Shown piece after piece: positions 16,684-54,300 of a DNA stretch of 64,000 nucleotides. How positions within the stretch are numbered: position 1 is the stretch's first letter; every line of letters starts with the position of its first letter. The stretch is from Bacteroidetes bacterium GWF2_38_335. Lineage in GTDB: Bacteria > Bacteroidota > Bacteroidia > Bacteroidales > GWF2-38-335. The notes under the pieces are model-generated. The model did not search any database and was not told where the DNA came from. It saw only the letters and a program-made list of their open reading frames with translations. The stretch is from assembly GCA_001769535.1 (NCBI GenBank), contig MEOH01000024.1, positions 62,001 through 126,000 of the forward strand, in the 5' to 3' direction. Position numbers and translations under genes: made by a program.

Positions 16684-17172
16684 TTATTCAGGGAATAAAA
16701 GACAGGTGGCAAAAACCGCAACACCTTTTTCCTCTCCAACAAATCCTAGTCTCTCGGTTGTGGTAGCTTTGATGGAAATATTTTCAACATCGGTATCAAG
16801 AACTTCTGCAATTATTTTCTGCATTTCAGGAATATATCCCATAAGTTTGGGTTTTTCCATGCATATGGTCACATCCAGATTGCCTAATGTATATCCTTTA
16901 TCCTTAATAAGTTTGAAGGATTTTTGGAGTAGAATTCTGCTGTCAATATTTTTGAATTCCGACGAATTATCCGGAAAATGAAAACCGATATCTCTTAATG
17001 AAACTGCACCCAGAAGGGCATCGCAAATGGCATGAATCACTACATCTCCATCAGAATGTGCAACAGTACCTTTGTTAAAGGGAATATTTACTCCTCCAAG
17101 AATTAAGCTTTCGCCTTCTTTTAGTTGATGAACATCAAAACCGGAACCAATCCTGATTTTAGTTGGTTTCAT
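16684..17172 (-). CDS. ispF: 2-C-methyl-D-erythritol 2,4-cyclodiphosphate synthase
   Basis: An MEP pathway enzyme forming MEcPP from CDP-ME-2-phosphate; a trimer with zinc. The metal site is in RIGSGFDVHQL (Asp and His near residues 13-15) and in DIGFHFPD; SDGDVVIHAICDALLGA and KATTTERLGFVG are standard family motifs. Its 162 residues are normal. The start overlaps the end of porV by 14 nt. As I recall the Porphyromonas gingivalis genome also has porU, porV and ispF adjacent, so this synteny is old. Confidence 0.96.
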   Translation of the reverse strand: MKPTKIRIGSGFDVHQLKEGESLILGGVNIPFNKGTVAHSDGDVVIHAICDALLGAVSLRDIGFHFPDNSSEFKNIDSRILLQKSFKLIKDKGYTLGNLDVTICMEKPKLMGYIPEMQKIIAEVLDTDVENISIKATTTERLGFVGEEKGVAVFATCLLFPE

Positions 17173-18379
17173 TCTTTAAACCGTCGAAATTGAAAATAAG
17201 GGTAAACCTTAATGTGTTTGCCAGAGGGTTATTTTGTTTTTGCGGAATGAGATATGCAAAATCCAATCCGAAAACCTTTAATCTCAGTCCAAGTCCCAAA
17301 GTGAAATATTTTCTGTTTCCTTTGGTTTCATGTTCATAGAAATATCCTCCGCGGATGGCAAACTGGTCTGAATACCAATACTCAGCACCAACAGCGTAAT
17401 TCATTTCACGCATTTCTTCCTTGAAAACATTTCTTGTACTGTCAGCCATAATTACTCCGGGTGCATCATTAAATGATCTGAACATACCAACCGGAATAGA
17501 AACATTGGGATCTTTGCCTGCAATAATATTTTCAGGTTCTCTTCCAATTCCATCATAAACGGGTGGGGTAGGAACCATCAAACGGTTAATATCCATTGCA
17601 AAAGTCAGTTTGTTATAATCATCCATTTCAGTGGTAAGAGCAGCTCCCAGACGAAGATTTATTGGAATAAAATCACGTTCCTGATTTTCGGTATAGGAAA
17701 TTTTTGAACCAATATTTGAGATGTTTAACCCGAAAGCCATATTTCCATCTCTGTCACCCATTTGAATTTCTTTTGTGTAAAATGTTGAAACATCTGCTGA
17801 AACAGCTTGACCTGCATGTGACTGGATTCCTTGTACAAACTGACCACCTGTTAGGTTGGAGTAGATGTAGCGTAAGGAAACCGAACCTGAAAGATGTTCG
17901 CCAAAAAGTCTTGAATATGCTCCGTCAAGTGAAAATTCGTTTGGTTTAAACTGACCAATTGTACTACCGTTGTTGTCAGTAAAAGTTATATCACCAAGGG
18001 AAAAATATAAAAGGGATACTCCAATAACCTGACGTTTATCCATTTTTTTATAACCCGATACATAGGCCAGATTTATATCGTTTACCAATTGTCTTAACCA
18101 GGGGGTGTAGGAAATGGACAGACTCATATCCTCTTCAGCAAAGGCATATTTTGCCGGATTCCAATGCATTGAATTGGCATCAGGTGAGGTTGCAACTCCA
18201 ACATCTCCCATTGCTCCCGCCCTTGAGTCGGGCGCAATCATAAGGAATGGAACAGCGGTAGTGATGGTGTTTATATCGCCTGTAAAAAATTCACCAGTAA
18301 TATTACTATTGGTATTCTGAGAATTAATAAAGGGTGTAAGTAAAAAAATCAGTACACCGGTTAGAAATAATTTCTGCAT
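17159..18379 (-). CDS. porV: Type IX secretion outer-membrane protein PorV (LptO)
   Basis: A FadL-like outer-membrane beta-barrel that shuttles T9SS cargo from the translocon to the PorU attachment complex. It has a signal peptide (MQKLFLTGVLIFLLTPFINSQ) and the PorV motif region LMIAPDSRAGAMGDVGVATS followed by NSMHWNPAKYAF. The length of about 406 residues fits the family. I start at the ATG at 18379: the longer frame begins with TTG and its first codon overlaps the likely -7 box. It lies directly downstream of porU. Confidence 0.94.
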   Translation of the reverse strand: MQKLFLTGVLIFLLTPFINSQNTNSNITGEFFTGDINTITTAVPFLMIAPDSRAGAMGDVGVATSPDANSMHWNPAKYAFAEEDMSLSISYTPWLRQLVNDINLAYVSGYKKMDKRQVIGVSLLYFSLGDITFTDNNGSTIGQFKPNEFSLDGAYSRLFGEHLSGSVSLRYIYSNLTGGQFVQGIQSHAGQAVSADVSTFYTKEIQMGDRDGNMAFGLNISNIGSKISYTENQERDFIPINLRLGAALTTEMDDYNKLTFAMDINRLMVPTPPVYDGIGREPENIIAGKDPNVSIPVGMFRSFNDAPGVIMADSTRNVFKEEMREMNYAVGAEYWYSDQFAIRGGYFYEHETKGNRKYFTLGLGLRLKVFGLDFAYLIPQKQNNPLANTLRFTLIFNFDGLKNETN

Positions 18380-18400
18380 TTTTATGATTTTAGTAATTTG

Positions 18401-18408
18401 CAAATATA
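18401..18408 (-). promoter_or_regulatory. Possible internal promoter -7 box for porV
   Basis: On the minus strand TATATTTG fits TAnnTTTG, 21 nt before the porV ATG, in the 60-nt gap after porU. No -33 box is evident, so porV may be read both from here and from porU. Confidence 0.35.
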
Positions 18409-18439
18409 ATACAAACTAAACTCTTAAAAAAGAAATTTA

Positions 18440-21400
18440 TTACTTGAGAATGACAAGTTTTTCAAATTTATTTACAACTTTACCTTCTTCTGACCTTACT
18501 TTAATTCGGTAAACATATACTCCACGGCCAATTGGGTCACCATAGTCATCCTTGCCATCCCAATGAATCGGTTCGCTTCTGAACCCATCTGAAAAAATAC
18601 TTGTGTCAATCGTTTTTATCAGTTTTCCTGATACTGTAAACACCTGAATTATAACATCCAGACTAGAATTAGGCTGGTTGTGGTCAAAATAGAAATCGGT
18701 GCTTGTTGTGAAAGGATTGGGGTAGTTGAAAATATGCTCCAAAACCAGTTCGGCCGATTTGGCAACAATAAACTCAATATATTCTTCAGAACTGTTGTTG
18801 TAAACATCCCAAACTTTTAATTTTAATTTATGATGGCCTTCAGTCAGGTCGCTGAAATTGTAACTAACCTTACCAGTTTGATAACTGTCCAGGTCCGATT
18901 CATAATATTCATTTAAAATATAGGTTTCATTGGTGCTTTCATCAATTATCGCAGTGATGTCATGGCCGATTCCATTCCCCACAGTATTTATTCCGCTTGA
19001 ATCGGAAACATAGGCAAGGAGCTTTGGATCTTCATCGGTAATACCTCCGAAAATAAAATTGTCATTGTTCATAAACAGACTAATTTCCGGGCCGGTTTCA
19101 TCATTGGCAACAGAATCGGAAGAGCCACCAATTATTACATTCCGGTAATAACCATGTGCATCGGTATTATCAATCGTCGCATAATAGCTTAATTTACCAT
19201 ATCCGATATTGTATGCAATATCCTTGGGAACAATAAAAGAAAAAGTAAAATCACCATTATTGATGCTCGCTTTTCCTTTATAAAGGATGTTATTCTGGAC
19301 ATCAAAGGTAAAAGCTGTATAAGAATCATTGCTCAATGTGATTACCTGAACTGGCTTATCAAATACAGTTGGGTAAAGAATTCCGGAAGACGGAATTTTA
19401 TTTCCATCCAAATCAACAACTTCACCCGAAATGCTTACCAAACTTAAGGCTTTGAGTGTATCTGGAATATCTGAGACAGCTACATCATTTATTCTTAATG
19501 TGTTAACCTGATGCTCAGGAATGGCAAGCCGAAGCGCAGGATCCCCAAGCAAAGTAAAATTAAGTTTATTTGTTCCGCTGCCAGTAGCTACTTTTGTCAG
19601 TCTCATTATATCACCCAAACGATAATATTCATCATTTTCGTCTCTTTCAAACACAAAGTCATAGAAATTCAGGTTTAAAGTGAAATTTGGAGCAGAATAA
19701 ACAAGTCGGGTGGTTGTTAGCAAACCAATTCCCCCTCCTGCAGGATTAAGCAATATTTGTTCTCCCGCACTGGTTCTTTCATAATCATCAAATCGACTGA
19801 ATTCACAGGTGGCAGTCATGAAAAGTGGCAATTTGTCAAAATTTGTCCAGTTGTTGATATCACTCACTGTCAATATCTGCTCATGTGCCCAGCTAACCTC
19901 GTTTCCATGTCCGGTGTAGTTAATTATAAGTGCTCCTTTTTGCATCTGATTTTCAATGGCCAGATTGGCATCAGGATATTTTTCGCCTGCAGGGGTAGAT
20001 ACCTGTTCATATGCATCAAGAAGAATTTTATTCTGATTATAAACCGGATATAAAGTATCCACTTTAGTTGCCAGTTGATTGGCCTGACTCATGTGCGTGT
20101 TGCTGTCCTCATCATCCCCAATAAAACAGATTGAGTTGCGCCAGTCACCGTATGTTTTCTGATTTGTAATGTAATTTTCAATTTTTGTAACAACCGAAGA
20201 TGCTTCTTCTGCAGTCTTCACCGGCAACCGTCCAATTCCTATGTCAAGGCCTCCAAAATGAGCACCTTCGCCATCATCAAGCAGACCAAAATAATCGTCA
20301 GTTACGAAGGATTCAGTTGCTCTTAAAGATTGAGGAGACTGATAAGTAAGGATAAAATTTGAGTTTTCTGCGGTGTAATTTCTGTTGTCGAATGATCCGT
20401 CTCCCATCAGCAAAAGATATTTTAATGGTCTTGTTGATACGGCGGTTTTATCGTACAACATTTTCATGAAGTATTTTATGGCTGAAACATCAGGTGTTCC
20501 GGATGAAAACTCATTGTAAACCTGCTCATTGGTTGCAACAAGCACAGTAAGGTTATCATTAGTCCGGTGAATGTCTGCCAATCGGTTTGCGCTGGCCAGA
20601 AAGTTAGGATGGGTAACAATTACCAGGTCGATATTTTCGGCACCATGCAGATTTTGATTTGCCACAGCACCATCGGATGATACTGATAAATAAGAATCAC
20701 CATTAAATGCAATAAATTGCTTCAGCGAATCGGTTGGAACAATAAATGAAACAATGCCACCCGAATACTCAGTTGCAATTCTCTTAATATTAACTCGGTC
20801 GGTAATATCCCAAATAATAAGGTCGCTTCCGGGGTAGGTAATATTAAATCTGGTGATGTTTCCGGTTCCAATGCATGAGGTATTTCTAAATTGCATTTGT
20901 GAGCCACTCATAATAAGGTTTCTGGTAACATTTACTGCCACATAATCAATCCAACCTTCCGAAGTTGTAGTTGATTTGTTATAATCAATTTTAATATTAA
21001 ATGTAGATGAAGTCGGGTTTACCGGTGTAACTGTCTTCTCAAAATTTGCATATGGAGCAGTTCCTGAAGTTGTGGTATAACTGATTTCCACATTGTTAAC
21101 CAGTGTGTTGTTCAGAAAGATATCGAAATCACTGTTTTCGGTTGATCTGGCCAGCAGGTAAGTTGTGATATAGGATTGTGAGGTGAGATCAATATTCGGA
21201 AAATTATATGATAAGGTATGGGATAAGTCAAGATCGAAATGTCTCCAAAACCACTGACTTCCAGATTTAATAAGATTTAAGGAGTCTTTTTCATAAACTG
21301 AGTAATCCTGAAATTTATTAACTGTGATTCCCGGAGTGAGTGAAAGATAATTTTCGGTTTCAATTGTTTTACCTTCTGTTGCAGAATTGGTAATAAAATA

Positions 21401-22222
21401 ATAGGAATATTCAGAAAACAAATTATACGTATGTTTAAAAACATATCCTGAGGCGTCATACTCCCAATCTGTTGTACTGGTCCCGTAAAACAAGATGTAA
21501 TCACCCGAGTTAAAAACACCATCGGAACCTTTTACAACCTGAATTGCATTTTCTTCAAGGTCGTCATACCTGAAATCACTGTTATAGACAGGAAGCAATT
21601 TGCCCCCGTTACCATGTATCCTGATATTTTTTATTCCGGTGAATCCCATTGAAATAAGTTCATCATAGGTGATTTTATAAACTCCGTCAGATTTTAATTT
21701 AACTTTTACCCATTGACCAGAATTAAGGACTGAACTTGATCGATATCCTTTAAAGTTAACTATTTGAGGTTCACCTTCATTAATATCATATTCAACGGTA
21801 AAATCAGTAAGAATCTGGTATTGTAAAGTGACGGGATCTTTCCTGACAGGGAGGACATGAAATTCGAGGAATGGAACATTTCTGTCATATATAATATTGC
21901 CTGAAATTTCAAAATCTGAAGAAATTTCATCTATTGAGGCAACGTTTTTTATGTCCGCTGCATTTATAGTTTGATATATTTGGTTTTTAAGTTTTATATT
22001 TGCGATTACAGGGTTTGCTATTTTTATTTGGATTCGTTCAAAATAATAAGGTAGCAGATTATTTTTTGGATAAACAGCGTTATTAAAAAATAAAAGTTCT
22101 TTGTCATTATTATTTATCGTTAAAGTTTTATCCCATTTAATATGGTGTTCTGATGTTGTTTGCGACATCAAAATGTAATTAACAGATAAACAAGCAATAA
22201 GCACAAAAATTATTTTTTTCAT
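18440..22222 (-). CDS. porU: Type IX secretion system sortase PorU
   Basis: A cell-surface C25 (gingipain-type) peptidase that removes the C-terminal signal of T9SS cargo and attaches the cargo to A-LPS. The protein has about 1260 residues with a signal peptide at the start. The C25 catalytic pair is visible: H772 in NYTGHGNEVSW and C806 in MTATCEFSRFDDYE. The C-terminal end is itself a sorting-type beta domain with YPNPFTTSTDFYF and GRGVYVYRIKV. I start at the ATG at 22222; an in-frame extension has no signal-like start. It heads the porU-porV-ispF-thioredoxin unit and diverges from porP. Confidence 0.95.
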   Translation of the reverse strand: MKKIIFVLIACLSVNYILMSQTTSEHHIKWDKTLTINNNDKELLFFNNAVYPKNNLLPYYFERIQIKIANPVIANIKLKNQIYQTINAADIKNVASIDEISSDFEISGNIIYDRNVPFLEFHVLPVRKDPVTLQYQILTDFTVEYDINEGEPQIVNFKGYRSSSVLNSGQWVKVKLKSDGVYKITYDELISMGFTGIKNIRIHGNGGKLLPVYNSDFRYDDLEENAIQVVKGSDGVFNSGDYILFYGTSTTDWEYDASGYVFKHTYNLFSEYSYYFITNSATEGKTIETENYLSLTPGITVNKFQDYSVYEKDSLNLIKSGSQWFWRHFDLDLSHTLSYNFPNIDLTSQSYITTYLLARSTENSDFDIFLNNTLVNNVEISYTTTSGTAPYANFEKTVTPVNPTSSTFNIKIDYNKSTTTSEGWIDYVAVNVTRNLIMSGSQMQFRNTSCIGTGNITRFNITYPGSDLIIWDITDRVNIKRIATEYSGGIVSFIVPTDSLKQFIAFNGDSYLSVSSDGAVANQNLHGAENIDLVIVTHPNFLASANRLADIHRTNDNLTVLVATNEQVYNEFSSGTPDVSAIKYFMKMLYDKTAVSTRPLKYLLLMGDGSFDNRNYTAENSNFILTYQSPQSLRATESFVTDDYFGLLDDGEGAHFGGLDIGIGRLPVKTAEEASSVVTKIENYITNQKTYGDWRNSICFIGDDEDSNTHMSQANQLATKVDTLYPVYNQNKILLDAYEQVSTPAGEKYPDANLAIENQMQKGALIINYTGHGNEVSWAHEQILTVSDINNWTNFDKLPLFMTATCEFSRFDDYERTSAGEQILLNPAGGGIGLLTTTRLVYSAPNFTLNLNFYDFVFERDENDEYYRLGDIMRLTKVATGSGTNKLNFTLLGDPALRLAIPEHQVNTLRINDVAVSDIPDTLKALSLVSISGEVVDLDGNKIPSSGILYPTVFDKPVQVITLSNDSYTAFTFDVQNNILYKGKASINNGDFTFSFIVPKDIAYNIGYGKLSYYATIDNTDAHGYYRNVIIGGSSDSVANDETGPEISLFMNNDNFIFGGITDEDPKLLAYVSDSSGINTVGNGIGHDITAIIDESTNETYILNEYYESDLDSYQTGKVSYNFSDLTEGHHKLKLKVWDVYNNSSEEYIEFIVAKSAELVLEHIFNYPNPFTTSTDFYFDHNQPNSSLDVIIQVFTVSGKLIKTIDTSIFSDGFRSEPIHWDGKDDYGDPIGRGVYVYRIKVRSEEGKVVNKFEKLVILK

Positions 22223-22313
22223 CTTAGAATTAATTTTATTGCTAACAAACAAATGTTTGAAAAAAATATTGTGTAAAGTTACAACAAATAACACCAATAA
22301 ATCAAAAAATCAA

Positions 22314-22321
22314 TATATTTG
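22314..22321 (+). promoter_or_regulatory. Possible promoter -7 box for porP-gldJ
   Basis: TATATTTG fits TAnnTTTG and would leave a leader of about 90 nt before the porP ATG. A near-match (TATAATTG) lies closer at 22380-22387. The choice between them is open. Confidence 0.3.
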
Positions 22322-22418
22322 TCTTTTGTATGGGAAAACATAATAAAATAATAAAGAGTAGAATTAAAAAAAAAATTTGTATAATTGCAAATCGTAGGAT
22401 ATATATATATTCAATAAA

Positions 22419-23408
22419 ATGATAAAACGTTTTATACTTTTATTAATGATTGGAATCTTGGGAGGCACGCAACTGGCCAATGCCCAGGATCCGGAGTTTA
22501 CGCAGTTTTATGCTAATAAACTCTATCTTAACCCGGCTTTTGCCGGAGCACAAAGATGCCCGAGAATTTCACTCAATTACAGAAATCAATGGCCTGCTTT
22601 GGGTTCCACTTATGTGACCTATAATGCTTCCTTTGACAGGTTTGTGAATCCACTCGGTGGTGGTGTTGGGTTATTACTCATGAATGACGTTCAGGGTGAT
22701 GGTGCCATTACTACAACCAGTATTAGTGGTTTGTACTCCTATTCTTTGCATGCAACCCGTTTTTTCACGGTAAGAGCAGGTTTCCAGGCAACTTATTTCC
22801 AGAAAAAGCTTAATTGGGATTTTATCTTCCCGGATATGCTGCATCCTTTGTATGGACCTGTTTTCCCAACATCCGAAATACAACCTGATAATTTATCCAG
22901 AGGATTCTTCGATTTTTCAACCGGTATTGTTGGCTTTAACAGAGATTATTTCTTCGGAATTGCTGTTCACCATCTTACCGAACCACTTGAGTCATTTTAC
23001 GATAGAAGTTTATCCGAATCAGTTCTGCCAAGAAAATATACAGTACATTTTGGAACTAACATTGAATTGCCCAGCAGAAGGTTTAAAAGGGGTGAACTAT
23101 CGCTATCTCCACAATTTATCTTCCAACAACAACAGGATTTCCAACAGGTTAACTATGGTATTTACCTGAACAGAAATAAAATTGTTGCCGGTGCATGGAT
23201 AAGACAAAATTTCGGATTCCATTATGATTCCTTTATTATGCTTGTCGGATTTATGCAGGATAAAATACAATTTGCCTACAGCTACGACTTAACTATATCC
23301 AAACTTAAAAACCAGACCTTGGGTGCTCATGAAGTATCCTACCAGATGGAATTTTATTGCAAAACTGTAAAACGCAAATTCAGAACAATAAGTTGTCCAT
23401 CATTTTAG
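22419..23408 (+). CDS. PorP/SprF family type IX secretion membrane protein
   Basis: A 329-residue outer-membrane beta-barrel of the PorP/SprF family. It has a signal peptide, then the family's opening AQDPEFTQFYANKLYLNPAFAGAQRCP and the NYRNQWPALG block. Proteins of this family either belong to the core T9SS (PorP) or assist secretion and anchoring of one adhesin (SprF with SprB). The neighbour gldJ suggests the core role, but the SprB-type repeats at 53.7-56.7 kb leave an SprF-like role possible. gldJ follows after 31 nt. Confidence 0.92.
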   Translation: MIKRFILLLMIGILGGTQLANAQDPEFTQFYANKLYLNPAFAGAQRCPRISLNYRNQWPALGSTYVTYNASFDRFVNPLGGGVGLLLMNDVQGDGAITTTSISGLYSYSLHATRFFTVRAGFQATYFQKKLNWDFIFPDMLHPLYGPVFPTSEIQPDNLSRGFFDFSTGIVGFNRDYFFGIAVHHLTEPLESFYDRSLSESVLPRKYTVHFGTNIELPSRRFKRGELSLSPQFIFQQQQDFQQVNYGIYLNRNKIVAGAWIRQNFGFHYDSFIMLVGFMQDKIQFAYSYDLTISKLKNQTLGAHEVSYQMEFYCKTVKRKFRTISCPSF

Positions 23409-23439
23409 TTATTTAATAAGAACCTGAAATTTTAGTAGT

Positions 23440-25203
23440 ATGAAAAAGATAATATTTTCGGCTTTGTCCGCCTTTATGCTGGTAATAATGGTTTTGTCAT
23501 CGTGTGACGTCCAAAGATCAAATACTACCGGCTGGAACTATAACGATCCTGATTATGGTGGATTTGAATACGTTGATTATTATGGTCAGGAAACCGGTCC
23601 CGGACTGGTACTCATCGAAGGTGGTACTTTTTCCATGGGTCGTGTTGAACAGGATGTTCTGTATGACTGGAACAACGTTCCCCGCCGCGTTACCGTTTCT
23701 TCATTTTATATGGATGAGACCGAAATCAGAAACGTTGATTACAGGGAATATATGTATTGGCTGAAAAGAGTTTTTGCCACATATCCCGAAGTTGAAAAAC
23801 AAGCCAGACCCGACACAAACGTTTGGAGAAGCAAGCTTGCTTACAATGAACCTTATGTGGAATTGTACCTCAGACATCCCGCTTATCAGGAATATCCTGT
23901 AGTGGGTGTTAGCTGGGTTCAGGCCGACAGATACTGTGTGTGGAGAACCGACAGGGTTAATGAATGGATTCTTATCAGAGAAGGCCTTTTATATAAAGAT
24001 CCTAACCAGGTTGATGCCGGTAACTTCAGTACTGACGCTTATCTTGCTAATAAATTTCAGGAAGGTGCTTATCGTGGCCCTGGTATCGAAGACCTTGACC
24101 CTAACATTGACTTCAGAAATGTTAGAATGGAAGATGGTATCCTGCTTCCACGCTACCGACTCCCGACCGAAGCAGAATGGGAATTCGCAGCACTTGCTCT
24201 CATTGAAAACCATATTGATGAACGTGTTTTCCATAGAAAATTCTTCCCATGGAATGGTCACTATGTCAGAAATGACGGCCAAAAAGAAATGGGTATGATT
24301 ATGGCCAACTCTATTCGTGGAAAAGGTGATATGATGGGTACTGCCGGTTATTTGAACGATAATGCTGACATCACTGCACCTGTTGATGCATATTGGCCTA
24401 ATGATTATGGATTATATTGTATGGCTGGTAATGTAAACGAATGGGTGATGGATATTTATCGTCCACTTACTTTTGAAGATATGGATGAATTCCGTCCATT
24501 CCGTGGTAATGAATATCGCAGAAAAACATTAAATAGTGACGGAACCATTGCTGATAAAATTTCAGAACCCCAGTATAACCTTACAGACATCATGTATTAT
24601 ATGTCAAAACTTGACTCTGTGGTTAGAAACATGAATCCGGCTGAAATTGCCTTGCTCGATCAGATCAGAACAAATCTGACTGTTGCAAAAACAAAATCTG
24701 ATGAAAGAAAATGGGAAGAGGTTCAAATTGAAATTAGAAAATCTGTTGAACTTTTAAAATCACCTGCTGCTGAAGCTAATATTGCCCCAATTTTGTTAGC
24801 AGAATTTTCAAAGTTGAGCGTCTCTATGCCTGGTCAGCTTAAAGATCAGAGAGTTACTGACGAAGAATGTTTCAACAGAAGAAATTATAACACTTCAGAC
24901 AACATTAATTTCCTTGATGGTGATTTTGAATCAAGTACCAGCTATGACAGTGGAACAAGGGCAGGCCATACTTCCGGAAAAATGTACTATCAGGGTAATG
25001 AAGCCAAATTTACTCCAAGAGGGGGTAACGATATGAACTCAATGATCAATGACAGGGTAAGGGTTTATAAAGGTGGCTCATGGAATGATAGGATTTATTG
25101 GATGGTTCCCGGAACCAGAAGATTCCTTGATGAAACACAAGCACGTGCTGATTTAGGTTTCAGATGTGCAATGACCAGAGTAGGTAGCCCCGTTGGTTTC
25201 TAA
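23440..25203 (+). CDS. gldJ: Gliding motility / T9SS lipoprotein GldJ
   Basis: A 587-residue lipoprotein (VLSSC lipobox, Cys22) with an FGE-sulfatase/SUMF1 fold related to GldK. The GldJ type is recognised from the N-terminal TGWNYNDPDYGGF, the block QETGPGLVLIEGGTFSMG, and VSSFYMDETEIRNVDYREY. The C-terminal half has the FGE core motif VRVYKGGSWNDR and LGFRCAM. In Flavobacterium, GldJ is needed for gliding and for GldK stability. A terminator then separates it from murF, an order I recall from flavobacteria. No other gliding genes lie here, so secretion without gliding is possible. Confidence 0.93.
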   Translation: MKKIIFSALSAFMLVIMVLSSCDVQRSNTTGWNYNDPDYGGFEYVDYYGQETGPGLVLIEGGTFSMGRVEQDVLYDWNNVPRRVTVSSFYMDETEIRNVDYREYMYWLKRVFATYPEVEKQARPDTNVWRSKLAYNEPYVELYLRHPAYQEYPVVGVSWVQADRYCVWRTDRVNEWILIREGLLYKDPNQVDAGNFSTDAYLANKFQEGAYRGPGIEDLDPNIDFRNVRMEDGILLPRYRLPTEAEWEFAALALIENHIDERVFHRKFFPWNGHYVRNDGQKEMGMIMANSIRGKGDMMGTAGYLNDNADITAPVDAYWPNDYGLYCMAGNVNEWVMDIYRPLTFEDMDEFRPFRGNEYRRKTLNSDGTIADKISEPQYNLTDIMYYMSKLDSVVRNMNPAEIALLDQIRTNLTVAKTKSDERKWEEVQIEIRKSVELLKSPAAEANIAPILLAEFSKLSVSMPGQLKDQRVTDEECFNRRNYNTSDNINFLDGDFESSTSYDSGTRAGHTSGKMYYQGNEAKFTPRGGNDMNSMINDRVRVYKGGSWNDRIYWMVPGTRRFLDETQARADLGFRCAMTRVGSPVGF

Positions 25204-25261: not shown

Positions 25262-26557
25262 ATGGAAAACGGAATAGAAAATTTATACAAAATCCTGCAT
25301 GGCTGTAAGTTTAAAATTGCAACCGACACCAGAGACATCAAAGGAGGAGAGATATTCTTTGCTTTGAAAGGTGATAATTTTAATGGAAATACATTTGTTT
25401 CAGAGGCACTTAGGCAAGGTTGCAGTTATGCAGTTACCGATGAGATAATTAATTCAAAATCTGAAAATGTCATAAAAGTTGAAAATGTACTTCATACCCT
25501 GCAGCAACTTGCAAATTACCATAGAAAAATTCTTAATATACCTATTTTAGCAATTACAGGGACCAATGGTAAAACAACTACCAAGGAACTTTCATTTTGT
25601 GTTCTGTCCAAAAAATATCACACAAGTTGTACAAAGGGCAACCTGAATAATCATATTGGTGTTCCGTTAACCCTTCTCTCGTTTAATTCCATGACCGAAA
25701 TTGGTGTGGTTGAAATGGGTGCCAACCATATTGGTGAAATAGATTTTTTATGCAAAATTGCGGAGCCTGATTATGGATTGATAACAAATATTGGAAAGGC
25801 TCATATTGAAGGGTTTGGATCTTATGAAGGAGTCATTACTGCGAAAAGCGAACTCTATAATTACCTTAACAACATAAAAGCACCTGTTTTTTACAATTCC
25901 GATAACAGCATCTTAAATAAGCTTTATAAATCGAAGCCTGTAGGCTATGCATTATCAGTAAAAGATGGGTTTTATGTGAAAGTGGTTGATAGAAATCCTT
26001 TTTTGGAAGTCGAAATACATAATGAAAAAGGCGAAAAGGTTAAAGTCAGGTCAAACCTTTTTGGAGATTATAATGCCGAAAACATTGCGGCAGCAGCTTG
26101 TATTGGAGATTACTTCAATATCAGTCTGAATGAAATTAAAAGCGCCATTGAATCATATATCCCTAGTAACAACCGGTCGCAAGTATACCAAACCTCAAAA
26201 AACACATTATATCTGGATATGTATAATGCGAATCCGACAAGTATGCATGCAGCTATCAGTAATTTTGCATTTGCCGATGGAGATAAGGTTTTGATTCTTG
26301 GCGACATGCTCGAACTGGGCAAGGTTTCGGCCAATGAGCATAGGGAAATTATTGCTCTGGTAAAAAAACTGAAATTTACGACCGTATTTTTTGCAGGAAA
26401 GGAATTTAAGTCCGTAAAGGATAATCATGAATTCCATTTTTTTTCCTCTTCGGATGAGTTAAAAGAATTTTTAAAAGCAAATCCTATCTCTGGAAAATCT
26501 CTGCTGATTAAAGGTTCCAGAGGAATAAAACTCGAAAAACTGGTGGAAGAATTGTAA
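25262..26557 (+). CDS. murF: UDP-N-acetylmuramoyl-tripeptide--D-alanyl-D-alanine ligase
   Basis: Adds D-Ala-D-Ala to UDP-MurNAc-tripeptide in the cytoplasm. The ATP loop ITGTNGKTTTKEL lies near residue 100, followed by EMGANHIGEI and NIGKAHIEGFGS (Mur-ligase central domain) and the C-terminal domain starting around 310 with LILGDMLELG. The 431-residue length is normal for Bacteroidota. Only 12 nt separate the upstream terminator from the ATG, so its promoter may overlap the terminator, or transcription may partly read through. Confidence 0.95.
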   Translation: MENGIENLYKILHGCKFKIATDTRDIKGGEIFFALKGDNFNGNTFVSEALRQGCSYAVTDEIINSKSENVIKVENVLHTLQQLANYHRKILNIPILAITGTNGKTTTKELSFCVLSKKYHTSCTKGNLNNHIGVPLTLLSFNSMTEIGVVEMGANHIGEIDFLCKIAEPDYGLITNIGKAHIEGFGSYEGVITAKSELYNYLNNIKAPVFYNSDNSILNKLYKSKPVGYALSVKDGFYVKVVDRNPFLEVEIHNEKGEKVKVRSNLFGDYNAENIAAAACIGDYFNISLNEIKSAIESYIPSNNRSQVYQTSKNTLYLDMYNANPTSMHAAISNFAFADGDKVLILGDMLELGKVSANEHREIIALVKKLKFTTVFFAGKEFKSVKDNHEFHFFSSSDELKEFLKANPISGKSLLIKGSRGIKLEKLVEEL

Positions 26558-26652: not shown

Positions 26653-27018
26653 ATGATAAATATCTTGCTTGTTTTTCTGGGGGGTGGAATAGGAAGTCTT
26701 TTAAGATTTGGAATCTCAAAAGCCGTAACAAGCAATTTTACAGGTATCAATCCGGTCGCCACTTTAGTTTCAAACGTTATAAGCACCGGAATACTTGGTA
26801 TTTTTTTGTATTACCTGTCTGAAAAATATAATTTCACAGATTCAGCAAGATATTTTATTGTCATTGGTATTTGCGGAGGTTTTAGTACTTTTTCGACATT
26901 CAGCTATGAAATCCTTGAACTTTTTAAGTCGGGGTATTTGTTTTATGCAGTGCTTAATATCGTAATAAGCATTTTTGCAGGTATTGGTATATTATTATTA
27001 ATCTCAAAACTGACCTAA
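26653..27018 (+). CDS. crcB: Fluoride exporter CrcB/Fluc
   Basis: A 121-residue protein with four membrane helices that forms dual-topology dimers and exports fluoride. Diagnostic features are GGGIGSLLRFGISK in the first helix, the pore Asn in LVSNVISTGILG, and the phenylalanine-box segment GICGGFSTFSTFSYE. Only one copy is present, as expected for the homodimeric type. The degenerate PafA-like gene starts at the very next base after the stop codon, so the two are co-transcribed. Confidence 0.94.
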   Translation: MINILLVFLGGGIGSLLRFGISKAVTSNFTGINPVATLVSNVISTGILGIFLYYLSEKYNFTDSARYFIVIGICGGFSTFSTFSYEILELFKSGYLFYAVLNIVISIFAGIGILLLISKLT

Positions 27019-28680
27019 ATGATCAGAACTAAAATTGTTTTTGTATTGTTGATATTTATCGCTTCATTTTTTTGTAAAGCACAAAATGACAACGCAATAC
27101 CTTCAGAAAAGCCTAAACTGATTATTGGCATTGTGATTGAACAAATGCGGTATGACTATATTCAGAGGTTCTGGAATAAGTTTGATAAGGATGGGTTTAA
27201 AAAGCTGATTAGTGAGGGAACCTTTTGCAAAAATGCCCAGCTTAGTTATCTCCTGACAAATGATGCTCCCGGAATTGCTACAATATATACCGGAGCCAGT
27301 CCGTCAGCACATGGAATTGTTGGAGATGAATGGTTTGCAAGGTTGAAAAATGAAAAATACTATTGTGTTGAGGATCCGGATCAATCGACCACAGGATGCG
27401 AGTCGGCCGACGGAAAAAAATCACCCAAGTGGCTGCAAACAACGACACTGACTGATGAATTGAAATTGTTTTCCCAAAACAAATCTAAAGTTATTGGGAT
27501 TTCTATTAACGACTACGCAGCAATATTTTCTGCAGGCCATAAGGCTGATGCTGCATATTGGTATGATGATAAAACAGGGCAATGGATTTCCAGTTCATAC
27601 TATTTGAGCGCATTGCCAACATGGGTAGTTGAGTTTAATGAAAAGCGGTTTCCTGAGTTTTATCTGACTATGGAATGGAGTACCATGTATCCCGTTGAAA
27701 CTTACACCGAGTCGAGGAATGATTCCTCAAAATATGAATCAGGCTTTGGAAAAGGCAAAACTACATTTCCATACGTTTTTTACGAAGCAAAAGGAAAACT
27801 ATCTTTCAAAAAGGATGAAATAAATTATAAGCTATTAAGACCCACACCTTTTGCAAATAATCTTACCACTGATTTCGCCATAGCTGCATTGACAAATGAG
27901 AATATGGGAAAGGATGAGCATCCTGATTTTCTTGCAGTGACTTACTCTGCCTCCGATTACCTGGGACATAAATTTGGCCCGAATTCAGTTGAGATTGAAG
28001 ATTTATATCTGCGCCTTGATAAAAATATTGCTCTGTTGTTGGAATATGTGAACACTACATATGGCAAGGAAAATGTACTAATCTTTTTGACCTCCAATCA
28101 CGGGGTTTCAGATAATCCCTCATATCTTAAGGATAATAAAATTCCTGCAGGGTTCTTTAAATACCATTATTCAATTGCATTATTAAAAAGCTATCTGAAT
28201 GCACTATATGGCGAAGGTGAGTGGGTTCAGGAATATCTTAATCAGCAGATTTATTTGAATCGCAGACTTTTGGAGGATGCCAAACTATCCTTAAATGAGG
28301 TGCAGGAAAAAGTATCCAATTTTATGCTGCAGTTCTCGGGAGTTTCAAATTCTATTACTGCAAATTCCTTTGTTACAAGTAATTTCACCTCAGGGTTATT
28401 TCAGAAAATGCAAAAGTGTTTTAACCAGAATCGGTCGGGCGATATTATGATATCACTTCAGCCCGGATGGATACAGGATAAACTTGATGTTGCCGATCAT
28501 GGCTCGGGATACGACTATGATTCACACGTTCCTTTGGTTTGGTATGGCTGGAAAATTAAACGTGGTACAATTTCTGAAAGAGTTTTTCTGGAGCAAATTG
28601 CTCCTACAATTTCTGATTTTATTGGAATTACTTATCCGAATGCCTGTGAAAGCGAGCCTATTGGCAATCTGATGAAATAA
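27019..28680 (+). CDS. Exported PafA-like alkaline phosphatase family protein with lost catalytic residues
   Basis: A 553-residue protein with a signal peptide and the overall plan of the PafA phosphatase branch. Compared from memory with Elizabethkingia PafA, the first metal Asp is E41 (VIEQMR), the nucleophilic Thr is D82 (TNDAPG), the substrate Asn is D103 (GDEW), the phosphate-binding Lys and Arg are N164 and Y166 (ISINDYAA), and the second-metal Asp is N360 (TSNHG). Metal ligands D313, H317, H361 and H503 remain. The frame is intact and framework motifs such as HGIVGDEW and GHKFGPNS persist, so it seems a maintained pseudoenzyme, perhaps binding a ligand in the periplasm, rather than a decaying gene. 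Confidence 0.85.
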   Translation: MIRTKIVFVLLIFIASFFCKAQNDNAIPSEKPKLIIGIVIEQMRYDYIQRFWNKFDKDGFKKLISEGTFCKNAQLSYLLTNDAPGIATIYTGASPSAHGIVGDEWFARLKNEKYYCVEDPDQSTTGCESADGKKSPKWLQTTTLTDELKLFSQNKSKVIGISINDYAAIFSAGHKADAAYWYDDKTGQWISSSYYLSALPTWVVEFNEKRFPEFYLTMEWSTMYPVETYTESRNDSSKYESGFGKGKTTFPYVFYEAKGKLSFKKDEINYKLLRPTPFANNLTTDFAIAALTNENMGKDEHPDFLAVTYSASDYLGHKFGPNSVEIEDLYLRLDKNIALLLEYVNTTYGKENVLIFLTSNHGVSDNPSYLKDNKIPAGFFKYHYSIALLKSYLNALYGEGEWVQEYLNQQIYLNRRLLEDAKLSLNEVQEKVSNFMLQFSGVSNSITANSFVTSNFTSGLFQKMQKCFNQNRSGDIMISLQPGWIQDKLDVADHGSGYDYDSHVPLVWYGWKIKRGTISERVFLEQIAPTISDFIGITYPNACESEPIGNLMK

Positions 28681-48524: not shown

Positions 48525-51350
48525 ATGAAAAGACTTTTTATTATTGCATTATTTTTTCTACCGGGGTTTTACCTGTGTGCACAGGAACAGATGATTAAGG
48601 CTTTTGAATGTCTTGACAAAAAGGGAGAAGTTTACTTTACTTTTGAAATGGATAATGCTGAAAGTGTTGCAGATCTTACAAGAATTGTTTCAATCGATAA
48701 CATTAAAGACAATCAGGTATTTGCTTATGCAAACCTCAAGGAATTTCTGAAATTTCTGTCTTTTAAAATTGACTACACCGTTTTGGAACATCCGGGCGAC
48801 CGCATTAAAAACCCCGCTATGTATGATGGCAGTAAGGGGATATGGGATTTTGACACATATCCTACCTACACCGAGTACGAAACCATGATGTATTCATTTC
48901 AGACAAATTATCCCGGAATTTGTAAAATTGTTCAGGTTGGAACTTCCGTGGATGGCCGAAAACTATTATACGCTAAAATATCCGACAATGTCAATACCCG
49001 TGAGGCTGAACCCAGATTTATGTACAGCTCCTCAATGCATGGCGATGAAACAACCGGATATGTATTGATGCTCAGATTAATAAATTACCTTCTTGAAAAT
49101 TACGGCGGTGATGCTGAGGTAAACAACCTCGTCAATAATATGGAAATATGGATCATGCCACTGGAAAACCCTGACGGAACTTATGCAGGAGGCAACACCA
49201 CAGTCGCAGGAGCAACCCGGTACAATGCAAACAACGTGGATTTGAACCGCAATTACCCGAATTTTGTTGAGGGTGATCATCCCGATGGTGAAGCATGGCA
49301 ACCCGAAGCCTTGGCATTGATGGGGTTTACCGATACAGTGCATTTTGTTCTATCTGCTAATTTTCACGGGGGTACCGAAGTGGTTAATTATCCCTGGGAC
49401 ACAAAAGCCGGACTGCATGCCGATGATGCATGGTGGTACTACGTTTCGCGCAATTATGCTGATGTTGTTCATAATTATGGTCCTGCCGACTATTTCGAAG
49501 GATATGATGATGGAATAACAAACGGTTATGCATGGTATCAGGCGCTGGGATCACGTCAGGACTATATGACCTACAACCGCTATGGTAGAGAGTTTACCCT
49601 TGAAATATCGGATGTTAAAACTGTTGATGCATCCGAACTACAAAATCATTGGAATTATAATTACCGCTCATTGCTTGCTTATATTAAGGAAGGTCTGTTC
49701 GGACTGAACGGAATAGTTACGGATTCCATTACTCATGAGCCGCTTGAAGCAATGGTTTATATTGATGGCCATGATCTTGACAATTCACATGTTTATTCAG
49801 AACTGCCCCATGGTGATTATTACAGGATGCTCAATGAAGGAAATTATGATGTTACTTATTCCTGTCCCGGCTACCGTTCTAAAACAATCAGCGTAAACAT
49901 TACCAATGGAATTGAAACAATTCTGGATGTGGAACTAGCAAATCTTTCAATGGTTCCGCCTTATGCTAATTTTAATGCCAGTGAAACAAACCTTTCATGC
50001 AGCGGTGAAGTTAGCTTTAACAATCTATCTGAAACCTACGGCACAACTACGTATCTCTGGAATTTCGGTGATGGCACAACTTCTGGTGAAATTAGTCCGG
50101 TGCATGTTTATACCACAAACGGAAACTATACTGTTTCACTTACAGTTTCCAATATAAATGGCAGCAACACCAAAACACGCATTTCTTATATTAATGTGAA
50201 CCTTCCCGTTATTACTGAAGTCAATTCAGCCGCAGTATGTGAAAGTTCAGGCAGCATGACCGTTTCAGCTTATGGAACAGGTACAATTTATTGGTTTGAT
50301 GTTCCTGTCGGAGGAACTTCTTTTCACACGGGAAATACATATACTACACCCGTAATTACTTCAACAGCTACTTATTATGTTGAGGACCATGTATTGCCCG
50401 AAACTGGTTATGTCGGCAAAACTGATAATGCCGGAAGCGGTTCCTATTACAACAACAACAGCGAATGGGGCTTGATTTTCGATTGCCTTGAAGCATGTTT
50501 GCTGAAATCGGTTAAAGTATATACCGGAAGTGCCGGTGAAAGAACTATCAGCATTTACAACAGCTCGGGAACTTTAGTTAATGAAGCAACAGTAAATATT
50601 CCCGAGGGCGAAAGCAGGGTTACCCTGAATTTCAGTCTGGATGCCGGTACAAATTATGAAATTACCTGTTCGGCTAACCCTGATATGTATAGAAATGACG
50701 GTGGAGTGCCTGTTTATCCCTACGTCCTTCCCGGTAAGATAAGCATAAATAAAAGCAACCTCCCCGAATTTTATGGCCCTGAAAATTTTTATTATTTCTT
50801 TTACGACTGGGAAATTAGCGGTGATGAATGTGTCAGCGAGCGGGTTCCTGTTTATGCCGTTATTAATGAAATTCCTGTTGCCCATGCCACTTATACCAAT
50901 GCAGGATATCAGGTTCAGATGCAAAACACCACTGAAAACGGTGTAACCTGGCTGTGGAATTTTGGTGATGGCAGTACATCAACCGATTATGAACCCATTC
51001 ATGATTATCCGGAATCCATTATTTATCATGCTTATTTGATCGCGTATAATGATTGTGGTTCAGATACTTTCTATTTTGATTTGGATTTAACAACTGCAGG
51101 ATTTGAATTTTCAGAAAAAAATAGTTTATTTGTATACCCAAACCCATTGACCGACATTTTAAATATTGGTTTTAACGAAAACAATCTGAAGACTATCAGG
51201 ATATTTGATATTTATGGAAATTTGACCTTCATGGATATCAGAAATGAAAAAATGGTAAGCATTGACCTGAGTTCTTTGGCAAGCGGCGTTTACATTCTGA
51301 CAGTTCAGGATGAAAGCGGCATTTTAAGAAAACAAATTATTAAGGAATAA
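48525..51350 (+). CDS. Secreted M14 zinc carboxypeptidase with PKD and Por sorting domains
   Basis: A 941-residue exported protein. After a signal peptide the M14 domain (about 105-395) has zinc ligands H172 and E175 (MHGDETTG) and H281 (NFHGGTEVVN), plus NRNYPN and a catalytic Glu in TLEISDVK. A carboxypeptidase-regulatory-like beta domain (about 400-475) and PKD domains (from about 479 and about 785) follow. The end (from about 869, FVYPNPLTDILN ... SGVYILTVQ) is a type A T9SS C-terminal domain. It would be cleaved and anchored by PorU. A paralog lies 29 nt downstream. Confidence 0.93.
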   Translation: MKRLFIIALFFLPGFYLCAQEQMIKAFECLDKKGEVYFTFEMDNAESVADLTRIVSIDNIKDNQVFAYANLKEFLKFLSFKIDYTVLEHPGDRIKNPAMYDGSKGIWDFDTYPTYTEYETMMYSFQTNYPGICKIVQVGTSVDGRKLLYAKISDNVNTREAEPRFMYSSSMHGDETTGYVLMLRLINYLLENYGGDAEVNNLVNNMEIWIMPLENPDGTYAGGNTTVAGATRYNANNVDLNRNYPNFVEGDHPDGEAWQPEALALMGFTDTVHFVLSANFHGGTEVVNYPWDTKAGLHADDAWWYYVSRNYADVVHNYGPADYFEGYDDGITNGYAWYQALGSRQDYMTYNRYGREFTLEISDVKTVDASELQNHWNYNYRSLLAYIKEGLFGLNGIVTDSITHEPLEAMVYIDGHDLDNSHVYSELPHGDYYRMLNEGNYDVTYSCPGYRSKTISVNITNGIETILDVELANLSMVPPYANFNASETNLSCSGEVSFNNLSETYGTTTYLWNFGDGTTSGEISPVHVYTTNGNYTVSLTVSNINGSNTKTRISYINVNLPVITEVNSAAVCESSGSMTVSAYGTGTIYWFDVPVGGTSFHTGNTYTTPVITSTATYYVEDHVLPETGYVGKTDNAGSGSYYNNNSEWGLIFDCLEACLLKSVKVYTGSAGERTISIYNSSGTLVNEATVNIPEGESRVTLNFSLDAGTNYEITCSANPDMYRNDGGVPVYPYVLPGKISINKSNLPEFYGPENFYYFFYDWEISGDECVSERVPVYAVINEIPVAHATYTNAGYQVQMQNTTENGVTWLWNFGDGSTSTDYEPIHDYPESIIYHAYLIAYNDCGSDTFYFDLDLTTAGFEFSEKNSLFVYPNPLTDILNIGFNENNLKTIRIFDIYGNLTFMDIRNEKMVSIDLSSLASGVYILTVQDESGILRKQIIKE

Positions 51351-51379: not shown

Positions 51380-54300
51380 ATGAAAAGGATTTTACTATCA
51401 GCGCTTTTCACTATTATTATTGGTTTCGGACTTAATGCCCAAACCGAATTTGAAAAAGCCCAGAATTATCTTCAACAAAAAGGCGAAGTTTATTTTACAT
51501 TTAGTGTCGAATCACCACTAATTCTGCTTAACCTCACGCGTGATATTTCAATTGACAGGGTAGACGGACTGGAAGTAAAAGCTTACGCAAATTCAAAAGA
51601 GTTTACAAAATTCCTTGATTATAATCTGGATTATACGATTCTGACACACCCCGGTGAACTGATACAGGAACCCGATATGTGGGACGAATCAAAAGGTATC
51701 TGGGAGTTTGATACCTATCCGACTTATTCCCAGTTTTTAACTATGATGAACACATTTGTCACAAACTATCCCAATCTGTGCAAATTGCATCAGATAGGGA
51801 CAACAGTTGACGGAAGACAATACCTGTTTTTACAAATTTCTGATAATGTAAACACACGTGAAGCTGAACCGAGGTTCATGTGGACTGGCTCAATGCACGG
51901 GGATGAAACCACCGGATACATTCTTTGTCTACACATGATTGATTACCTGCTTGATAACTATGGTACCAATACAGATGTGACCAATATTATCAACAATACC
52001 GAGTTGTGGATTATGCCTTTGGAAAACCCCGATGGTACCTACGCCGGAGGAGATAATACCGTCTCAGGATCGGTCAGATATAACAGCAATAATGTTGACC
52101 TGAACCGAAACTATAAAAATCAGCTTGACGGGGACCATCCCGACGGCGAAGCATGGCAGCCTGAAACTATGGCCATGATGGGATTGCTTGATACACTTCA
52201 TTTTGTAATGTCGGCAAACTTTCATGGCGGGGCTGAAGTGGTTAATTTCCCTTGGGACAGTTGGGTTAGTACTTCAAATCCACATGCTGATAATGATTGG
52301 TTTTATTTTATTAGCCGCGAATACGCCGATGAAGTGCATCTTCATGCTCCCGCTGCATATATGGATTATCTTGACAACGGAGTTACCCATGGAGGTGACT
52401 GGTATGTGGTAACCGGAAGCAGGCAGGATTATATGACTTGGTACAATAGGGGTAGGGAGGTCTGTCTTGAAGTTTCAGATACAAAAACAATTCCGGCATC
52501 CGAATTGCTCAACCATTGGAATTACAATTACCCATCCATGATAAAATACATGAAGCAGGTTCAATACGGAATCAGAGGAATAATCACCGATGCCTGTACC
52601 GGCCAGCCCATTGTTGCTAATATTTCAATTACAGGTCATGACCAGACCAATGACCAGTCTGATCAATACAGTGAATTGCCCTTGGGCGATTATTACCGGC
52701 CAATTGAAGCTGGTACCTATAGTGTTGTTTATTCTGCTCCCGGATACGTTTCCCAAACATTTTCAGTGACCGCGGCAAATTATGCTACAACAACACGAAA
52801 TGTTGCCCTCCAGCCGGCTGCTCCGGTTTCTGATTTTGAAGCCGATGAAACATCAACATGCTCAGGCACAGTAAACTTTAGCTGCCTGACAACCGGAGTA
52901 ACAACCTGGAGCTGGAACTTTGGCGACGGTCAGACATCAACACTCCAAAACCCATCTCACACCTATACCGCAAGTGGAACCTATACAGTTACACTGACGG
53001 TTACAAATTGTGGCGGACTTGGCACCGATACTGAAGCAAAAACCGCTTATATTACGGTCGATTTGGCCACTGCGCCCACAACTACAGGAGGAAACAGATG
53101 CGGCAGCGGAACCGTAAACCTTTCAGCTTCCGGCTCAGGAACACTTAACTGGTATGCCGGACCAACAGGAGGTACAGTTTTAACAACCGGATCAACCTAT
53201 TCTCCTTCGGTTTCTGCAACCACAACTTACTATGTTGAGGATGTGGTTTCTTCACCTGCCGTAACCTATAACGTAGGGGAAACAATGAGCTCAAGCAATG
53301 GTGCTTACAGAAATGGTTATTATTATCTGATTTTTGATTGTACTACTCCATTTGTTTTGAAATCTGTTGAAATCAATTCCCAAACCGCAGGTGTTACCCA
53401 CACCATACAACTTCAGAATAGTTCAGGAACAATGATTCAAACAATTGACGTAACAGCTGCCACGGCTGGTGTAAGCAGGGTTGACCTTAACTTTAATGTT
53501 CCGGTGGGAACTGATTTGCGATTGGCAAATACCTCTTCAACCTATTTATACCGAAACAATACCACCTTAAGCTACCCTTATGAAGTACCGGGTGTGGTCA
53601 GCATTAAAACAACCAATGCTTCACCCAACCCGACCACATATTATTATTATTTCTTCGATTGGGAAATTGAAGTGCCCGGCGAAACATGCTCTAGTCCGCG
53701 TACTCCGGTAACAGCCACTGTTTATACCGGTCCCACCCTTGCAATGACATCAACCGCTGAAAGCACTCCTGGTGCAAACAACGGAACAGCCACAGCCACC
53801 CCCACAGGATCTTCACCTTATACCTATATATGGAATGACCCGGCTCCGGTTCAGACAACCCAAACGGCAAACGGTCTGGCAGCAGGTACATATTGTTGTA
53901 CAGTAACTGACAGTCACGGTTGCTCAAGTTCATCATGCGTTACTGTTGCTGTTGGTGCATCTCCCCTTAATGCCTCAGTAAGTGCAAGTACTAATGTTGC
54001 ATGTTATGGAGTTTGTACCGGAACTGCAACTGCTGCAGCGTCAGGAGGTACTTCTCCTTACTCATATAACTGGGGAAGTGGTATCACCACACAAACTGCC
54101 AGTAATCTATGTGCAGGAACTTACATTGTTACTGTTACGGATAACGTAGGAAGTACTTCAACTGCTTCCGTTACAATTACTCAACCGGCTTCTGCAGTAA
54201 ACGGAACAACAAGTTCTGTTGCTGTAAGTTGTTTTGGCGGAAGTAACGGACAGGTTTCCGTTACCGGATCAGGTGGAACTTCGCCTTATACATACCTCTG

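Follow-up and report, generated by a model that had tools for sequence, protein, structure and literature searches.

The window analysed here, a stretch of 64,000 nucleotides from Bacteroidetes bacterium GWF2_38_335, carries on its forward strand (27019–28680) an intact open reading frame with an ATG start that encodes a protein of 553 residues. Pfam, alignments with PafA, a structure model and NCBIfam together identify it as a degenerate PafA, that is, a pseudophosphatase. It matches the Pfam family PF01663 with 144.4 bits (cut-off 23), and scores 640.4 bits on the NCBIfam profile NF042991 (alk_phos_PafA), under the equivalog cut-off of 650; L069, an intact relative, reaches 686.6 bits on the same profile. 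The hydrophobic N-terminus (residues ~1–21; 27019–27081, forward strand) is a putative export signal, modelled as a helix at residues 2–21 followed by a low-confidence stretch at 20–25, and the mature protein would presumably be periplasmic. Directly upstream and on the same strand lies crcB (26653–27018; Pfam CRCB, fluoride channel family), the stop codon TAA of which ends at 27018, adjacent to the ATG at 27019. It is preceded by a murF-type Mur ligase gene (25262–26557, forward strand), a gene with an FGE-sulfatase domain, which we take to be GldJ-type, and a PorP_SprF gene. These Pfam assignments agree with the preliminary description, made from the sequence alone, which had placed the gene downstream of porP-gldJ and murF.

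The neighbouring region 17159–25203 is a T9SS cluster with PorV, PorU (Peptidase_C25), PorP and the GldJ-type protein. The presence of the PorP_SprF, FGE-sulfatase, Peptidase_C25 and PorV families in the window could indicate a T9SS-linked factor, as could genes taken to encode GldD and/or GldE, found near the degenerate pafA of other families (L037, L038, L041, L042, L048, L063, L070 and L073, with GldE in L059). However, of all loci examined, only the window and its congener G001 have the porP-gldJ order, and in the Lnb-SecA context described below a neighbour of this kind is seen just in L059 (GldE, at a distance of 5.5 kb); a T9SS-linked function is accordingly most unlikely.

Comparison of the window protein with the PafA alkaline phosphatase of known structure (5tj3) reveals full-length homology (phmmer E-value 2e-113, residues 22–550), and the phmmer and MAFFT alignments are concordant on all ten catalytic columns, D38, T79, N100, K162, R164, D305, H309, D352, H353 and H486 in PafA numbering, which serve as metal ligands, nucleophile and substrate contacts. 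Four of the ten residues are kept. The metal ligand D38 is replaced by E41 (27139–27141), the nucleophile T79 by D82 (27262–27264), N100 by D103 (27325–27327), K162 and R164 by N164 and Y166 (27508–27516), and D352 by N360, which is followed by H361 on the kept H353 column (28096–28101). D313 and H317 occupy the D305 and H309 columns (27955–27969) and, together with H494 on the H486 column (28498–28500; all positions on the forward strand), form a complete Zn1 triad, so that a metal may still bind there. Both alignments confirm the replacement of the Thr, the Asn, the Lys/Arg pair and the two metal-site Asp residues that the preliminary description had proposed. Its list of kept ligands holds for D313, H317 and H361; the fourth, H503, aligns with PafA H495 and is to be exchanged for H494. 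The loss of catalytic residues is near certain, and from this sequence comparison we infer that the window protein is catalytically inactive.

The fold itself appears to be preserved. The AlphaFold2 model, computed from an alignment of 40 sequences, has a pLDDT of 92.7 and a pTM of 0.91, and superimposes on 5tj3 with a Z-score of 63.2 over 513 residues (rmsd 1.6, 36% identity), as expected for a PafA fold. Besides the fold, the window protein has in common with PafA the hydrophobic N-terminus and the crcB-pafA gene order, the latter found in part of both groups, whereas the nucleophile is missing. A close structural parallel is the active-site mutant 5too (T79S/N100A/K162A/R164A according to the PDB title; Z-score 63.7), a folded PafA altered at four sites that are also altered in the window protein; 5too is however engineered, and the window protein is additionally changed at D38 and D352. 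The SPAP/PhoK-type alkaline phosphatases 3q3q, 5xwi and 5xwk share the superfamily fold at a greater distance (Z-scores of 41.0–45.2 to the model, 24–25% identity) and, judging by the title of 5xwi, which refers to a covalent intermediate, are active enzymes.

In order to see how far the degeneration extends, relatives were collected from 60 genomes of the order, including the window genome, 36 of which matched at an E-value of 1e-10, and by a wider pattern scan of 84,980 species genomes, in which at least 578 relatives were confirmed and the best 80 retained. The comparison thus comprises 118 rows: the query, PafA, 36 loci from relatives and 80 named loci. In this set, which includes the best 80 of at least 578, 68 rows keep 9–10 of the catalytic residues (67 of them all ten), 50 rows keep 0–5 and none keeps 6–8, a bimodal split that exceeds chance. 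The named loci, again the best 80 of at least 578, divide into 65 intact sequences, from Flavobacteriaceae, Hymenobacteraceae and Balneolaceae among others, and 15 degenerate ones labelled Bacteroidales, Marinilabiliales, Salinivirgaceae, Prolixibacteraceae, Paludibacteraceae or just Bacteroidetes/Bacteroidota. Two pairs of rows are identical (L035 and L071; L046 and L114), each uniting a locus from the order of the window with a named record, which points to Bacteroidales as that order. The degeneration of PafA is that of a large subfamily and no isolated case. As to whether the substitutions are shared across a clade, a point raised in the preliminary description, the loss is common to this subfamily and the replacements differ from lineage to lineage: 47 different ten-residue strings occur across the 50 degenerate rows (one fragment and a few near-duplicates among them; best 80 of at least 578 included), and the congener G001 has G at the nucleophile column where the query has D. 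When 38 of the 50 degenerate rows are considered, the Lnb-linked and very divergent ones being omitted, the conservation percentiles of the ten catalytic columns, 87th–98th in the active rows, are only 7th–68th, although the mean over all columns is little changed (2.52 bits in active versus 2.32 bits in degenerate rows).

These residue patterns bear on the question of whether the protein could have remained an enzyme whose metal site is rearranged and whose chemistry has changed; in the window genus, a second metal could then be bound by E41, D82, N360 and H361. The complete Zn1 triad of the query (D313, H317, H494) would fit such an enzyme, and T or S is retained at the nucleophile column in 23 of the 50 degenerate rows, and D/E38, D352 and H353 in 10 (counts that include the best 80 of at least 578). 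Yet within the same 50 rows, with the same inclusion, the triad is complete in only three (the query, G001 and L070) and both metal sites are intact in none, the nucleophile column lies at the 19th conservation percentile in the 38-row comparison, and the congener has G there instead of D. Retained catalysis of whatever kind is therefore considered unlikely.

The dN/dS values of the two degenerate pairs with unsaturated dS, out of seven, are 0.078 (dS 0.80) and 0.111 (dS 1.99, near saturation), compared with 0.060–0.101 for four active pairs; purifying selection is thus measured on two related degenerate pairs, the query–G001 pair being among the five with saturated dS. No internal stop is present in 35 of the 36 matching genomes of the order (active copies included), G047 being the exception, and open frames are found across more than 30 family codes. 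A pseudogene in decay, suggested by the lost active site and by a single copy that is broken or partial (G047, L028/L058), is hardly compatible with these open frames, with dN/dS values of 0.08 and 0.11 and with the confidently predicted fold, and is extremely improbable. The combination of lost catalytic residues with purifying selection, the latter as measured on the two related pairs, is that of a pseudoenzyme, and it is very likely that the window gene has been retained by selection in a non-catalytic role. Alignment, model, tree, dN/dS and intact frames all favour the original proposal of an exported PafA-type protein that is dead by sequence but conserved, probably as a scaffold, a sensor or similar.

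Whether catalysis was lost once or several times was addressed with two trees. A quick tree of 117 rows, from which the L058 fragment was left out, unites 49 degenerate rows and the intact L069 with an SH-aLRT support of 100. For a more careful tree of 63 rows, the fragment, the long branches L067, L063, L057 and L056, the near-duplicates L071, L114, L096 and L087, and 46 of the 68 active rows were dropped. Here the query, G001 and G053 are joined by L069 (support 92/89, branch not starred, bootstrap not fully settled), a placement beside the query lineage that would mean repeated losses. The degenerate rows are held together in just 4% of the bootstrap trees; a single degenerate clade is nevertheless not rejected by the AU test (p = 0.566, the tree held to it being 2.27 log units better). 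The gene order pafA-S8 peptidase-outer-membrane protein is common to the intact L069 and the degenerate L035/L071, L048, L049 and L074. Moreover, eleven columns are conserved in the 38 degenerate rows with a residue other than that of active PafA. The subfamily residue is present at nine of these columns in L069, at eight in the query and at fewer in the Lnb-linked clade. Positions conserved in the subfamily include L388, Y392, W402, F435, G441 and W484. The subfamily would therefore appear to have taken on a character of its own prior to the loss of catalysis, or without any connection to it.

The crcB gene had been regarded as coupled to the degenerate pafA. The adjacency of stop and start codons is correct; the link is an old one and not specific. 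Among the 65 named active loci (of the best 80 of at least 578), 14 have crcB upstream on the same strand within ~1.6 kb, seven of these with ychF upstream of crcB, and three more have crcB downstream on the opposite strand. Among the degenerate rows, 50 in all, the link is confined to the window, L040 and L036, the last also with ychF (flank lengths differ between rows), and in G001 murF and the degenerate pafA are 69 bases apart with no crcB between them. As a specific functional partner crcB was consequently discarded. The occurrence of the crcB-pafA order in active and degenerate loci alike suggests that the degenerate gene represents the positional orthologue of PafA and no spare copy, and the window gene looks like one that lost its active site in place. 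The search of the window genome (assembly 96.7% complete) yielded no intact PafA, the sole other PF01663 match being, on inspection of its sequence, a phosphoglycerate mutase; a PhoA-family phosphatase is present elsewhere in the genome. Across families the neighbours of degenerate pafA comprise YchF, an M14 peptidase, PcrB-GldD-GldE, S8 peptidase-OMP, CrcB, Lnt and Lnb-SecA; in some, no gene among those tested is present. Lnt was rejected as a general neighbour, since just a single lineage (G011, to which row L114 is identical) has it beside the gene.

Lnb is the lipoprotein N-acyltransferase of Bacteroides described in a 2024 PNAS report, as cited in PMC13103446 and PMC12345273. By Pfam (Lnb_N, 5TMH_Lnb) it is a different kind of protein from degenerate PafA, to which it is neighbour or fusion partner in other families. 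In eight genomes (L055, L059, L060, L061, L062, L064, L066 and L068), representing eight families of the order, the pafA-like gene lies directly 3' of lnb on the same strand and is followed by secA. The Lnb_N profile matches beside the pafA-like gene in all eight; Pfam hmmscan covered four of the Lnb proteins (L055, L059, L062 and L068) and the SecA of L055. In L067 a single open reading frame of 924 residues combines, according to Pfam, Lnb_N, 5TMH_Lnb and a PafA domain; no SecA was found near this fused gene. Lnb is matched in 58 of the 61 genomes of its family (f41) and a PafA-like protein in 40, each of which also has an Lnb match. In 25 of the 40 the two genes are joined or lie next to each other: fusions without a stop occur in six genomes from five genera (32–45% identity to L067 except for one identical congener), three are in line with one stop and 16 are adjacent; in the remaining 15 they lie apart. 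Three fusions besides L067 are confirmed by hmmscan, the PafA domain of L152 falling below the cut-off; the fused frame of G073 codes for 927 residues. The twelve PafA-like sequences fetched from f41 (one pair identical) are all degenerate, and the other matches in the family may include active paralogues. Four of the five fused proteins scanned (two identical) have six hydrophobic segments and L152 has five; Lnb has five helices, and the sixth segment, which comes after them, is the former signal peptide.

The association extends to gene content. Lnb is present in 25 of the 35 order genomes with degenerate PafA versus 4 of the 25 without it (Fisher p = 2.5e-5, uncorrected for kinship); conversely, degenerate PafA occurs in 25 of the 29 Lnb genomes versus 10 of the 31 others. 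Each thus also occurs alone, degenerate PafA in 10 of its 35 genomes and Lnb in 4 of its 29. Of the 25 order genomes that have both, 9 carry them side by side or as a fusion. The eight adjacent loci fall in one clade of nine rows, the ninth member, L065, keeping secA but not lnb alongside; the arrangement may therefore have arisen once. In G031 the pafA-like gene still precedes secA though Lnb is elsewhere in the genome. The window genome (G000) and G001 have Lnt, that of G000 on a different contig from the window gene. No match to Lnb_N (PF13387) was obtained in either genome with the profile that matched in 29 others, nor to an Lnb alignment in a search run without a positive control; the window assembly is 96.7% complete. 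As the window genome thus has Lnt and no detectable Lnb, we infer the partner of the window copy by analogy. As a side observation, 29 of the 60 genomes have Lnb_N and 34 have Lnt, and the two are nearly exclusive (25 with Lnb only, 30 with Lnt only, 4 with both, 1 with neither).

From these observations we propose, tentatively but as the explanation that we favour, that the protein is a non-catalytic periplasmic partner of envelope machinery, most likely that of lipoprotein N-acylation, kept by purifying selection at the position of PafA. N-acylation is our best single guess at the role, held with a confidence that ranges from doubtful to nearly balanced. The window protein would be exported and PafA-folded and lack phosphomonoesterase chemistry, and purifying selection would keep the dead PafA as a periplasmic domain. 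Its job may be that of a binding or scaffold partner in lipoprotein maturation at the inner membrane, above all in N-acylation, in presumed physical contact with Lnb or other machinery: with Lnb where the genes are joined and, in the window genus, with Lnt by analogy or with some other partner. Given the sixth hydrophobic segment of most of the scanned fusions, the PafA domain would face the periplasm together with the Lnb N-domain, and the dead phosphatase could there hold a substrate lipoprotein, the donor phospholipid or another envelope protein. That the Lnb-linked role also applies to the window copy would be an extrapolation from these relatives. For the subfamily as a whole it is possible, if doubtful, that Bacteroidales PafA proteins gave up catalysis, perhaps several times, after a second, non-catalytic function had taken hold, namely that of a periplasmic N-acylation subunit, fused to Lnb in some lineages.

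A non-catalytic envelope protein unrelated to lipoprotein acylation, the lnb-secA position being one inherited housekeeping operon, is conceivable though rather unlikely. It would agree with neighbours that differ widely by family, with the 10 of 35 genomes that have degenerate PafA and no Lnb, and with the confinement of the eight adjacent loci to one nine-row clade in which L065 has secA and no adjoining lnb. It leaves unexplained the single-ORF fusions with Lnb in five genera, and the Lnb link that persists in f41 with no SecA near the fused L067.

PafA is a well-studied phosphatase that is used for estimating phosphorus cycling. Annotation of homologues by similarity alone may ascribe to Bacteroidales a phosphatase that they do not have. 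The PafA diversity survey of PMC8812569 removed sequences with any point mutation in key residues from its alignment, so that a dead subfamily would presumably not have appeared there. No description of a degenerate PafA subfamily was found in a literature search that covered titles and the beginnings of abstracts, the original Lnb paper being outside its scope. Should the Lnb fusion reflect a shared function, degenerate PafA would be a candidate accessory subunit for the recently found lipoprotein-maturation step of Bacteroidota.

Some further features of these loci may be mentioned. In the secA-linked clade (L055, L059–L062, L064–L066 and L068), STGY is found in six of nine sequences where PafA has ADHG, and all nine PafA-like proteins have RIR-x-P near the C-terminus. 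An S8-type peptidase gene lies within a few bases 3' of pafA in L035, L048, L049, L069, L071, L074 and L075, followed by an outer-membrane-protein gene in all except L075. Finally, the window contains on its forward strand two tandem genes (48525–51350 and 51380–56929) for zinc carboxypeptidases of family M14 that carry PKD domains and a sorting domain of the Por_Secre_tail type, with 11 SprB repeats besides in the second; homologues of the first lie directly 5' of the degenerate pafA in L037, L038, L041, L052, L070 and L096.
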